From: Anaerolineales bacterium
GTDB taxonomy: Bacteria; Chloroflexota; Anaerolineae; Anaerolineales; UBA11579
Assembly (NCBI GenBank): GCA_019454165.1
Contig: CP075367.1
Span: forward strand, 1,776,805 to 1,840,804
Direction: 5' to 3'
Length of the DNA stretch: 64,000 nucleotides
The stretch's first letter is position 1. Every line of letters starts with the position of its first letter. Shown here in pieces: positions 1,752 through 5,297 of this stretch. The notes under the pieces are model-generated. The model worked only from the letters and a program-made list of their open reading frames with translations. It did no database searches and was not told where the DNA came from. A program made the position numbers and the translations under genes.

Positions 1752-3593
1752 TTACTCCACCGTGACGCTCTTGGCCAGGTTACGCGGCTGGTCAACATCC
1801 AACCCGCGCAGGCTGGCGATGTGATAGGCCAGCATTTGCAACGGGATGACCGCGGCCACTGGCGACAGCAACGGGTGAGTCTTCGGGATCCAGAGCACAT
1901 GGTCGGCCAGGGTGGGGATCAGCGTGTCGCCCACGGTGGCCACGGCCACTACCTTGCCGCCGCGCGCCTTGGCCTGCTCGATCTGGCTGATCATCTTCTC
2001 ATACAGATCATCCTGAGGAGCCACCACGATCACCGGCATATCCTCATCCACCAGCGCGATCGGGCCGTGCTTCATTTCACCCGCCGGGTAACCTTCGGCA
2101 TGGATGTACGAAAGCTCCTTCAGCTTGAGCGCGCCCTCATAGGCAGTAGAGGTATTAATGCCGCGGCCAAGGTATAGGCAGTGGGTGATGTCTTTGATGG
2201 CCTTGGCCACCTCTTCCACTTCAGCCTCGCGCTCCAGGCAGGCCGAGACCCATTCAGGCACATGACTAAGCTCAGCCACCAGGGCACGGCGGGTGTTGTC
2301 ATCCAGCGTGCCGCGCAATTCGCCCAGTAGGATGGCCAGCATGTACAGGTTGACAATGGGCGCGGTATACGCCTTGGTGGACGCTACGCCGATCTCCGGC
2401 CCAGTCTGCATCGAAATGTAGCCATCGGCAATACGCATAGCTTGCGAGCCGATCATATTGATGTTGGCCCACAGCGTTGCGCCGCGCTTGCGGCCCTCAG
2501 CCATGGCGGCCAGGGTGTCGGCCGTCTCGCCGGACTGGCTGATAGCCAACACGGCCATCTTGTCGGTGATCAACGGATCCCGGTAGCGGAATTCAGACGC
2601 AATGTCGAACTCTACAGGGATCTTGGCAATGCGCTCGATGTACTTGGCGCCGATCTGCCCGGCATACCCCGCCGTGCCGCAGGCGATGATGTAGATCTTC
2701 TCCAGCTCTTTGACGAACTTCTCATTGAGCTTGAGGTCGGGCAGCATGATACGACCGGTTTCAAAATCCACTCGGCCAGAGATGGTGTCCGTGAGCGAGC
2801 GTACCTGCTCGTGAATTTCCTTCTGCATAAAGTGGCGATACTCGCCCTTTTCAGCCGCAACTGGATCCCAAAAGATGATGTCTACATGCGGCTCGAGGGT
2901 CTCGCCCTGCAAGTTGCTCAGGCTCATGCCCTCACGGGTCACTACCGCCATCTGGCCGGATTCGAGGAAGACCACTTCGCGGGTGTGCTCCAGGATGGCC
3001 GGCAAGTCAGAGGAAATGAACATCTCGTCCTTGCCAAAGCCCACCACCACTCCACCGGCGTTACCCATGCGGGCTGCCACGATGCGGTCTGGTTGGCGTG
3101 AGCTGAAGAGTACGATGCCGTGGTGACCACGGATCATGCGCAGCACCTGGCGGGCAGCGTCTTCCAGACTACCATCCTTTGCCATGAAACGATCCACCAA
3201 CTGCACGATGACTTCAGTATCCGTGTCTGACTTGAACTCGACACCCTCAGATTCCAGTTCCTCGCGCAATTCCAGATAGTTTTCGACGATGCCATTGTGC
3301 ACAAGCACCACTTCGCCCGAGGCGCTGACATGCGGGTGTGCATTGCGGACATTCGGTTCGCCGTGGGTGGCCCAACGGGTATGGCCGATCCCCAGCTGCC
3401 CATGCAGTGGCTGCTGCTCCACCGTGGTGAAGAGACGGTCGAGCTTGCCAGCATCCCGTCGGATCTCGATGTGCTGATCCTCCAGCACAGCCACCCCGGC
3501 AGAGTCGTACCCGCGGTATTCGAGACGCTTTAAGCCGTTCAAAATAATCGGCGTCGCGTCCCGCGGGCCGATATAACCAACAATTCCACACAT
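1752..3593 (-). CDS. glmS: Glutamine--fructose-6-phosphate aminotransferase (isomerizing)
   Basis: 613-residue cytosolic enzyme making glucosamine-6-phosphate from fructose-6-phosphate and glutamine, the first step to UDP-GlcNAc and peptidoglycan. The start MCGIVGYIGP gives the nucleophile Cys2 (Cys1 after Met removal). The N-terminal glutaminase half contains RYDSAG-like and HTRWATHG motifs; two SIS domains follow (CGTAGYAGQIG, AISQSGETADTLAA, TKAYT), ending in the standard DQPRNLAKSVTVE tail. The frame is open further upstream, but start 3593 is fixed by the catalytic Cys and by GGAGG nine bases before ATG. It is divergent from mreB and preceded by a ~370-base structured leader. Confidence 0.97.
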   Translation of the reverse strand: MCGIVGYIGPRDATPIILNGLKRLEYRGYDSAGVAVLEDQHIEIRRDAGKLDRLFTTVEQQPLHGQLGIGHTRWATHGEPNVRNAHPHVSASGEVVLVHNGIVENYLELREELESEGVEFKSDTDTEVIVQLVDRFMAKDGSLEDAARQVLRMIRGHHGIVLFSSRQPDRIVAARMGNAGGVVVGFGKDEMFISSDLPAILEHTREVVFLESGQMAVVTREGMSLSNLQGETLEPHVDIIFWDPVAAEKGEYRHFMQKEIHEQVRSLTDTISGRVDFETGRIMLPDLKLNEKFVKELEKIYIIACGTAGYAGQIGAKYIERIAKIPVEFDIASEFRYRDPLITDKMAVLAISQSGETADTLAAMAEGRKRGATLWANINMIGSQAMRIADGYISMQTGPEIGVASTKAYTAPIVNLYMLAILLGELRGTLDDNTRRALVAELSHVPEWVSACLEREAEVEEVAKAIKDITHCLYLGRGINTSTAYEGALKLKELSYIHAEGYPAGEMKHGPIALVDEDMPVIVVAPQDDLYEKMISQIEQAKARGGKVVAVATVGDTLIPTLADHVLWIPKTHPLLSPVAAVIPLQMLAYHIASLRGLDVDQPRNLAKSVTVE

Positions 3594-3689
3594 ATGAAGA
3601 ATCCTCCAACTATGTCTACAGGCCGCTGCTGGAGCGTTTGTCCGCATGGTTGCCCACGCGGCGTTGTGCGCCAGCTCTATCTTGGAGGG

Positions 3690-3968
3690 AAGTTCGGGGG
3701 CGGGTCTCCCGGAGGGCATCCGCTGATCTACGCAAGCTTGTGGGCGGCCTTCGGCCGGCCACTTGCGCTTGCTAATGCAGTTTGGCAAAACCCGCCAAAC
3801 TGCACTTTCATTCGATTTTCACGGCCGTTAGGCCGCTATCTTCGCTGTGAAGCGTGGAGAAACATGCTTCTCATTTCTCCAGCGCTGGCACTACGCCGCC
3901 TTTGGCGGCGTTGTCCAGCGCAAGAACCACTCAACCTCGTCACCCGGCATTTTGCCGGGCCGTGCGCT
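3690..3968 (-). ncRNA. Candidate glmS self-cleaving ribozyme with an enlarged internal arm
   Basis: The glmS leader, read on the minus strand, contains landmarks of the glmS ribozyme in the right order: AGCGC at 3968-3964 (cleavage would fall between A3968 and G3967); a P1-like hairpin CCCGGCA/TGCCGGG (3959-3943); TGACGAGG at 3942-3935; GCGGATGCCCTCC at 3723-3711; then a short P3-like hairpin CGGGAGACCCG. A P2 pairing GAG(T)GG with CCCTC is possible. Differences from Firmicutes examples: GCGCA instead of GCGCC, and about 200 bases with five further hairpins where the P2 loop is normally tiny. If real, glucosamine-6-phosphate would trigger mRNA cleavage and lower glmS expression. It could instead be another structured leader. 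Confidence 0.5.
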
Positions 3969-4034
3969 ATTCCCTCGGTGTCAGTTAGCTTCGCTTTGTC
4001 TCTATTCACCTCACATTTAACTGGAGTGGGCATG

Positions 4035-4066
4035 ATTATACCCAGCACCTGGCCCAAATTGTTCAA
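4035..4066 (-). promoter_or_regulatory. Putative glmS promoter
   Basis: On the minus strand a perfect TATAAT at 4040-4035 with TTGAAC at 4066-4061; the 20-base spacing is longer than ideal, so the -35 assignment is weak. Transcription would begin near 4028, about 60 bases before the predicted ribozyme cleavage site. Confidence 0.5.
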
Positions 4067-4071
4067 GCCGG

Positions 4072-4100
4072 GTGAACGCCGGCCGGCTGCATGGTAAAAT
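4072..4100 (+). promoter_or_regulatory. Putative mreB operon promoter
   Basis: GTGAAC (4072-4077) and TAAAAT (4095-4100) separated by 17 bases, on the plus strand, giving a leader of about 125 bases before mreB. It lies back to back with the glmS promoter. Confidence 0.5.
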
Positions 4101-4183
4101 CACTTGATTTTCTGCAAGGTCTGCCGTACGTTCATACGCTGCCTACATCAATAATGAAGAAGTTGCTTACACCACAAGAGCTT

Positions 4184-4229
4184 CACCCTGCCCCGGCAGG
4201 GTGCTTTACATTGGTATACCCGCGGGGTA
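4184..4229 (+). promoter_or_regulatory. Two hairpins in the mreB 5' leader
   Basis: CACCCTGCC pairs with GGCAGGGTG (4184-4203), followed by a second inverted repeat TACCC-GCG-GGGTA (4217-4229) ending three bases before the mreB ATG. The second repeat contains the only purine-rich stretch (GGGG) near the start, so it could occlude ribosome binding. A role in tuning mreB translation is inference. Confidence 0.35.
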
Positions 4230-4232
4230 CCC

Positions 4233-5297
4233 ATGGCCTTTAACCCCCTCAACTGGATCCTTGGTTTTTTCTCGCTGGATATTGGCATAGACCTTGGCAC
4301 CGCCAACACCCTGGTGTTCGTGCGCGGCAAGGGCATCGTCATCAACGAGCCTTCCTGGGTAGCGGTGGAGAAGAAATCCCGCATCCCCATCATGGTAGGC
4401 GATAAAGCGGCCGTCGGCCAGGTGGCCAAGGAAATGTCTGGCCGCGCCCCGAAGAATGTGATGGTCGTGCGCCCGCTGCGGGATGGCGTGATCTCAGAAT
4501 TTGAGATCACCGAAGCCATGCTGGCCCACTTCATCGGCAAAGCCCATGAGCAGAGCATTGTGCCCCTCCCCCGCCCGCGGGTGGTGGTTGGTGTGCCCAC
4601 TGGCGTGACCGAAGTCGAGAAACGCGCCGTCAACGATGCGGCCCTGCTGGCCGGCGCCCGCGAGGTCTACTTGATCGAGGAGCCTACCGCCTCCGCCCTG
4701 GCTGTGGGTCTGCCCATCAACCAAGTGGGCGGCAGCGTGGTACTCGATATTGGCGGTGGCACCTCAGAGGTGACCGTTTTCTCGCTGGGTTCAGTGGTGG
4801 CCAATCGCAGCCTGCGCGTCGCAGGTGACGAGCTGGACCAGGCCATTGTGCAATACATCCGCAACAAGTACAACATCCTTATCGGTGAACGTGCTGCCGA
4901 GCAGGTAAAGATCAAAGTTGGCTCGGCCTTTCCCCTCAAGGAAGAGAAGACCACCACGGTACGCGGTCGCAACCTGGTCAGCGGTCTGCCAGAAACGCTG
5001 GAGATATCCTCGATCGAGATCCGTGAGGCACTGAGCGGCCCGGTGGACCAGATCATCCAGGCTGTCAAAGAAGCCCTGGATGATGTGCCCGCTGAAATGG
5101 TGGGCGATGTGATGGACAACGGCGTGTGCATGTGTGGCGGCGGCGCCTTGCTGCAAGGCCTGGCGGAGCGCCTTAGCGATGAGCTGCGCCTGCGCTGCTG
5201 GGTGGCAGATGACCCGCTCACCTGCGTGGCGCGCGGCGCCGGTTTGGTGCTGGATGATCTTGAGGCATATCGCCACTTCCTGATCCAGATGGATTAA
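4233..5297 (+). CDS. mreB: Rod shape-determining actin homologue MreB
   Basis: 354-residue bacterial actin that polymerises under the membrane and guides the elongation wall-synthesis machinery. Seen: the phosphate-1 motif DIGIDLGTANTLVFVRGKG near the start, the phosphate-2 region VVLDIGGGTSEVTVFSLG, the adenosine region CMCGGGALLQGLAERLS, and an N-terminal hydrophobic helix (FNPLNWILGFFSL) suited to membrane binding. Length is normal (330-360). It heads the order mreB-mreC-mreD-mrdA, the conserved shape operon. No strong Shine-Dalgarno sequence precedes the ATG; the leader is folded (see the hairpins upstream). Confidence 0.97.
   Translation: MAFNPLNWILGFFSLDIGIDLGTANTLVFVRGKGIVINEPSWVAVEKKSRIPIMVGDKAAVGQVAKEMSGRAPKNVMVVRPLRDGVISEFEITEAMLAHFIGKAHEQSIVPLPRPRVVVGVPTGVTEVEKRAVNDAALLAGAREVYLIEEPTASALAVGLPINQVGGSVVLDIGGGTSEVTVFSLGSVVANRSLRVAGDELDQAIVQYIRNKYNILIGERAAEQVKIKVGSAFPLKEEKTTTVRGRNLVSGLPETLEISSIEIREALSGPVDQIIQAVKEALDDVPAEMVGDVMDNGVCMCGGGALLQGLAERLSDELRLRCWVADDPLTCVARGAGLVLDDLEAYRHFLIQMD

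Follow-up and report, generated by a model that had tools for sequence, protein, structure and literature searches.

The leader of glmS in this Anaerolineales genome is very probably a glmS-class ribozyme enlarged at two junctions of its core. All elements of such a ribozyme were found upstream of glmS on the minus strand, at positions 3968 to 3600 of the window (the whole 64-kb stretch of DNA that was analyzed): the AGCGC cleavage site, P1, P2, the P2.1/P2.2 double pseudoknot, P3/P3.1, and P4 with a GNRA loop (Table 1). An initial annotation had proposed a candidate glmS ribozyme in this leader, and sequence, covariation, and genomic context all give that identity good support. Comparison with other genomes further suggests that the glmS-type RNA family also controls nitrogen use.

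The glmS leader RNA and its core

We built a covariance model, R2, from 27 glmS leaders, leaving out the window's genus. Across the 64-kb window, its sole match lay at 3682-3968 on the minus strand, with 54 bits and an E value of 3.7e-12, which is rough given the short calibration. The training alignment had standard pairs in 95.6% of its pair cells and both-side changes at 19 pairs, and its covariation score was reached by none of 500 shuffles. The RNA at 3720-3968 folded 7.2 standard deviations below its shuffles, and the core motifs were present in 39 of the 40 sampled glmS leaders, the window's own included. Two additional weak R2 matches in the same genome were rejected as chance, one being tRNA-like (L190) and the other lacking the core order (L191).

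Rfam model RF00234, the check proposed for this locus at the outset, stayed below threshold on the window, recovering only a P4 fragment (3660-3637, 11.3 bits, against a cut-off of 37), whereas the lineage model reached its score without the window's own genus. Taken literally for RF00234, this is the outcome that the initial annotation had named as a refutation. Because about 190 bases are inserted, we read this miss as a failure of the model and not of the RNA; a covariance-model score is a threshold for detection and not what defines the ribozyme. All other Rfam matches in the window, at the gathering cut-offs and at E<=10, were attributable to chance. Among 61 relatives, counting the window's own genome, RF00234 matched at E<=10 in 56 and exceeded the Rfam cut-off in 17, relatives with shorter inserts being among the latter; the occurrence outside Firmicutes, pointed out in the initial annotation, is thus not unusual in this lineage. 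One RF00234 match, at L079, lay in coding sequence and was discarded as chance.

Core numbering follows that of PMC7125110, with A(-1) at 3968 and G1 at 3967. The minus strand of the leader reads AGCGCACGG-P1-TGACGAGGTTGAGTGG...AAAATCGA...GATCAGCGGATGCCCTCCGGG, and the invariant core A(-1)GCGC, ACGAG, AUCGA, and GCGGAUGCC is present in order. The motifs named previously, AGCGC (3968-3964), P1 (3959-3943), TGACGAGG (3942-3935), GCGGATGCCCTCC (3723-3711), and P3 (3711-3695), indeed follow one another on this strand. Among relatives, P1 showed both-side changes at 6 of its 7 pairs. P2 in genus mates consists of GAGTTGG or GAGTGG opposite CCCTC or CCACTC. Residues 28-30 help to form the active site and residues 43-45 are part of the pocket (PMC7125110); the corresponding P2.1 pairs, C28-G45, G29-C44, and A30-U43, are invariant. 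All pairs of the P2.1/P2.2 double pseudoknot around P2 can form except 5-53: in P2.2, C2 pairs with G56, G3 with C55, C4 with G54, and G7 with C52, and A5 faces A53. The combinations A5/A53 and C5/G53 change together, C5 being found with G53 in 4 aligned relatives. The mismatch counts against the ribozyme reading: changes at residue 5 or 53 of the T. tengcongensis core cost ∼1000-fold on average, although the 5-53 pair is poorly conserved in nature (PMC7125110).

Pairing between the P3 loop and the strand 3' of P4 (P3.1) was stronger within than across species (14.1 versus 12.4, standard deviation 0.41, P < 0.0002). The RNA extends past position 3690, via P4 and P3.1, to about 3620; it lies within the 5' leader of glmS, and ∼25 nt separate its end from the start codon. 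L4 is of the GNRA type in nearly all relatives; the GNRA loop of P4 is needed for the L4-P1 contact (PMC11602151). J3/4 contains a CCTCC complementary to the Shine-Dalgarno sequence in 31 of 39 glmS leaders. Since no covariation beyond this constant CCTCC could be detected among the 39 leaders, we keep the pairing as a weak suggestion.

A consensus promoter scan of the leader strand (minus) called no promoter. An MreB-like gene (assigned by eye; start at 4233, plus strand) is divergent to the leader, and the intergenic region 3594-4232 is common to both. At most 30 nt upstream of AGCG, a stretch ACTGAATA..GGAGAAAT or GGAAAAGA is conserved in glmS leaders as well as in the leaders of nitrogen genes described below.

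Table 1. Features of the glmS locus and its predicted leader ribozyme (window coordinates)
Feature	Positions	Strand	Basis
glmS, glutamine-fructose-6-phosphate transaminase, 613 aa; regulated gene	1752..3593	minus	TIGR01135, 768 bits (cut-off 418)
P4; purine-rich internal loop ACAAC / GACAAAC, GNRA loop GCAA	3628..3675	minus	sequence; relatives
J3/4 CCTCCAA, complementary over 7 bp to glmS Shine-Dalgarno TTGGAGG (3609-3603)	3682..3688	minus	sequence
P3 hairpin, whose loop CCGC (3703-3700) forms pseudoknot P3.1 with GCGG (3626-3623)	3695..3711	minus	own-versus-cross pairing test
TCAGCGGATGCCCTC, 3' strand of P2.2 and 3' strand of P2	3712..3726	minus	sequence; relatives' alignment and covariation
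Site-2 insertion of 83 nt, within the loop that joins P2.1 to P2.2	3729..3811	minus	sequence; relatives
AAAATCGA, 3' strand of P2.1 (U3815 C3814 G3813), cofactor-pocket strand	3812..3819	minus	AAAATCG invariant in 27 glmS leaders
Site-1 insertion of 107 nt, between P2 5' strand and P2.1 3' strand	3820..3926	minus	sequence; relatives' hairpins
5' side of P2 (GAGTGG); partner CCCTC (3716-3712), with a single bulged U	3927..3932	minus	comparison of loci L021-L026
GACGAGG, 5' side of P2.1 (C3939 G3938 A3937) and strand of the active site; G3938 presumably the general-base position	3935..3941	minus	invariant in relatives
P1 hairpin CCCGGC-AAAAT-GCCGGG, closed by a G8-U25 wobble	3943..3959	minus	covaries in relatives
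Predicted scissile step A(-1)/G(1), inside AGCGC	3967..3968	minus	invariant in all aligned relatives; R2 match starts at 3968
Weakly supported putative -10 box (TATAAT) for the glmS leader, without a good -35	4035..4040	minus	sequence

Hairpin domains at two core junctions

The inserted sequence is organized as hairpin domains and disrupts none of the core strands. A single insertion of ∼200 bases replacing the P2 loop had been proposed. The large, multihairpin extra sequence was confirmed, but it is divided between two sites of 107 and 83 nt, and P2 itself is intact: the inserts lie at the P2-P2.1 junction (site 1) and in the P2.1-P2.2 loop (site 2), separated by the conserved AAAATCGA. Site 1 contains hairpins at 3921-3882, 3881-3855, and 3836-3821 (GCGGCC/GGCCGU), and site 2 contains hairpins at 3804-3776 and 3772-3732. 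In relatives, the two homologous site-1 hairpins (helices 5 and 6) covary strongly.

In the B. subtilis and T. tengcongensis sequences, the stretch from P2 to the 3' strand of P2.1 is approximately UUUA. Across relatives, the distance from GACGAG to GCGG is graded, with values of 42, 62-76, 82, 107, and 156-220 nt. Two leaders (L059 and L060) have one site-1 hairpin, most of the order has two with GCTAA between them, and some leaders elsewhere in Chloroflexota are compact and have no hairpin at site 1 (e.g., L177). As far as the compared sequences go, site 1 is a trait common to Chloroflexota, of which the window's genus is the extreme. The architecture that the initial annotation considered unusual is real and large as an insertion, but it stands at the end of a graded series. 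The P2.1-P2.2 loop canonically consists of a few nucleotides, residues 47-50 (PMC7125110); it measures 3-5 nt in most relatives and is long in the window's genus.

Between genus mates, the inserted hairpins vary in length and sequence and have no conserved core of their own. Because they vary so freely between species, they are probably outward-pointing spacers or stabilizers rather than sensors, and the idea of the insertions as a new sensor was set aside for want of any conserved core.

The window RNA shares with the RF00234 ribozymes of the B. subtilis, B. anthracis, and T. tengcongensis type the cleavage-site sequence, the core strands, the double pseudoknot, P3/P3.1, P4 with its purine-rich internal loop and GNRA loop, and the site upstream of glmS. 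It differs from them in its 107-nt and 83-nt insertions, its A5/A53 mismatch, and its anti-Shine-Dalgarno J3/4 strand. Judged by these features, it is an enlarged variant of the known glmS ribozyme. McCown, Roth, and Breaker reportedly described glmS ribozymes beyond Firmicutes in 2011, all but two of 463 being in glmS mRNAs, and Deinococcus-Thermus variants with extra core stems. By that description, the latter likewise carry additional catalytic-core stems outside Firmicutes; the RNAs described here come from a different phylum, and in the window's genus their additional domains reach a very large size.

Related RNAs upstream of nitrogen assimilation genes

RF00234 matches far from glmS were found to precede genes for glutamine synthetase or FMN-type glutamate synthase. 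Searching 84,980 species genomes for the pattern AGCGRCTGAG-N(6-36)-ACGAGGTGGAGGTT yielded 47 loci, labelled as Anaerolineales and relatives, Anaerolineae, or Chloroflexi/Chloroflexota; the invariance of AGCGRCTGAG and ACGAGGTGGAGGTT among them is partly by construction, because the search pattern fixed both. The first gene was glnA at 37 loci, glutamate synthase at 5, and unreadable at 5 owing to contig ends. Since none of the 42 readable loci had glmS as its first gene, we filed this nitrogen class as glmS derived and not as a glmS-gene ribozyme. Its members possess the core sequence and the P2.1/P2.2 fold, some of them scoring above the RF00234 cut-off, and in an alignment of 40 members, 97.7% of the cells were paired, with both-side changes at 22 pairs. 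A model built from the class, R1, matched 219 of 396 genomes of the bacterial class, a count that mixes both RNA classes because the matches examined outside the order were mostly glmS leaders. Many Chloroflexota genomes matched a related model.

These RNAs occur in front of nitrogen genes across Anaerolineales (loci L081-L127 and L128-L143), including the cultured species Bellilinea caldifistulae, Levilinea saccharolytica, Longilinea arvoryzae, Thermanaerothrix daxensis, and Ornatilinea apprima. The window's own genome has a second glmS-type RNA (L061; C1:1963917-1964125, minus strand, 53.4 bits with R1), located 183 kb away and upstream of two glutamate-synthase-domain genes, with a promoter-like TTGACA/TATAGT pair and a strong terminator-like hairpin 3' of the RNA. 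Glutamine synthetase (PF00120) was not found in this single-contig genome (G000) or in G008, G001, G002, G017, and G020; the same search found it in 14 of 14 control genomes, and the genus mates G005 and G007 carry one. In these six genomes, the nitrogen-class RNA precedes glutamate synthase genes. In one Anaerolineales family (L158-L162), the operon order is RNA, Ada-like AraC/O6-methylguanine methyltransferase, EamA-like transporter (assigned by eye), and glnA; the methyltransferase gene is of DNA-repair type.

In a tree, 57 nitrogen-class RNAs formed one clade (100/100) within the glmS RNAs. Two further nitrogen-gene cases, G093 and G342, stood apart from it, and their cores keep the glmS register, with AGCGCA or AGCGCC. 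The number of origins is provisional, because the tree was computed from 155 columns and the assemblies of G093 and G342 are each split into many contigs. Both lie outside the order: in G093 (L163), an RNA of glmS register precedes a FAD-oxidase/glutamate-synthase/glnA operon, and in G342 (L170), one precedes glutamate synthase genes.

A search of 15 nitrogen-class loci with all Rfam families gave no match to RF01739, returning glmS and one tRNA only. RF01739 is the glnA RNA, or glutamine riboswitch (PMC3766115); the sister class resembles it as a leader RNA of nitrogen assimilation genes, but the RNAs are unrelated. We found no report of a glmS-type RNA before glnA or glutamate synthase in the open-licence literature.

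The two classes differ in the register of P2.2. Whereas in glmS leaders C4 pairs with G54 and the P2.2 bulge is at position 6, the nitrogen class has a purine at position 4, pairs C5-G54, U6-A53, and G7-C52, and a bulge at position 4; the pocket residues are unchanged. To our knowledge, such a shift is otherwise known only from laboratory mutants. There, A6C rescued C4A ∼24-fold, which was read as a bulge moved to position 4 (PMC7125110), and since this shift is equivalent, cleavage by the nitrogen-class RNA is plausible.

A terminator-like hairpin lies between the RNA and the first gene in 40 of 56 nitrogen leaders, compared with 2 of 52 glmS leaders. One such hairpin, GGGCATGCC..GGCATGCCC, belongs to a glnA leader of Bellilinea caldifistulae or Longilinea arvoryzae. 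The sequence GGAAGGG has two possible partners that compete for it, CCCTTCC in J3/4 and the terminator's 5' arm. Both pairings were stronger within than across species, at -14.0 versus -13.4 kcal/mol for J3/4 and -13.7 versus -12.2 kcal/mol for the terminator arm (P < 1/5000 each, n = 40; two-strand energy model, with a permutation that leaves shared descent in). The arrangement resembles that of transcription-attenuating riboswitches, in which the antiterminator and terminator pairings downstream of an aptamer-like RNA exclude each other. Unlike in those, the aptamer-like part is a ribozyme fold, of a class which current opinion holds does not instruct the expression machinery (PMC10907184).

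Proposed mechanism and alternatives

In the window RNA, glucosamine-6-phosphate (GlcN6P) would bring about product-feedback cleavage, as in Firmicutes, and pairing of the J3/4 strand with the Shine-Dalgarno sequence might add a translational layer. Mainly through a single recruitment, the same RNA would have come to serve operons for glutamine synthetase and glutamate synthase, where a terminator/antiterminator lies 3' of it. GlcN6P is an amino sugar made from glutamine, and GlmS, GlnA, and glutamate synthase all make or use glutamine or glutamate; for this reason, we infer that a shared signal fits. On the most likely reading, nitrogen assimilation would answer to GlcN6P via cleavage, attenuation, or both. 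We advance the full scenario tentatively, at a little under an even chance: a duplicate of the glmS ribozyme, arisen in Anaerolineales, came to control glutamine synthetase/glutamate synthase operons, its P2.2 bulge shifted and its platform a terminator/antiterminator, with GlcN6P serving as a nitrogen-sufficiency signal and an RNA class known for cleavage alone also attenuating transcription. A fold switch driven by the ligand is spoken against by the finding that GlcN6P leaves the fold of the known ribozyme unchanged (PMC11602151).

The strongest competitor to this scenario, which we nonetheless consider unlikely, is that the nitrogen class senses another amine or nitrogen signal through a pocket altered by the shifted bulge. 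The register change is fixed in the very clade that serves glnA and glutamate synthase, as such a change of ligand would lead one to expect, but the separate recruitments in G093 and G342 retain the glmS register and the pocket residues are the same, so that GlcN6P is the simpler reading. It is improbable, to a greater degree, that the fold was kept and cleavage lost, leaving a GlcN6P riboswitch that acts by Shine-Dalgarno occlusion at glmS and by termination at glnA and glutamate synthase. The J3/4 complementarity in most glmS leaders, the terminators and competing pairings of the nitrogen class, and the A5/A53 mismatch would all suit a noncleaving RNA; however, the invariance of the A(-1)G1C2, ACGAG, and AATCG strands in relatives is hard to explain without catalysis, and laboratory mutants regained cleavage through a bulge shift like that of the nitrogen class (PMC7125110).

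With respect to the window RNA itself, the inserted domains could constitute a separate sensor or protein-binding module gating the ribozyme, being large, stable, and retained through the genus. We give this very little weight, as their lengths and hairpin sequences differ between genus mates and no conserved core is present. An origin of the whole pattern in chance motifs and ordinary leader hairpins has a negligible probability: single motifs are no rarer than expected by chance (TGACGAGG is expected 1.5 times per window), but the independent model match and the covariation already refute it, and the presence of the motifs in nearly all glmS leaders speaks against it.

The window RNA indicates that the core of a metabolite-dependent ribozyme can open by 190 nt at two junctions while its catalytic strands stay fixed. 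The nitrogen class, if functional, would be the more surprising result of the two, and it is directly testable, since cultured species carry such RNAs. It would supply natural examples of the P2.2 bulge shift and would test the opinion that glmS RNAs give no instructions to the expression machinery. With it, the reach of the glmS ribozyme would go beyond its own gene and into central nitrogen metabolism.
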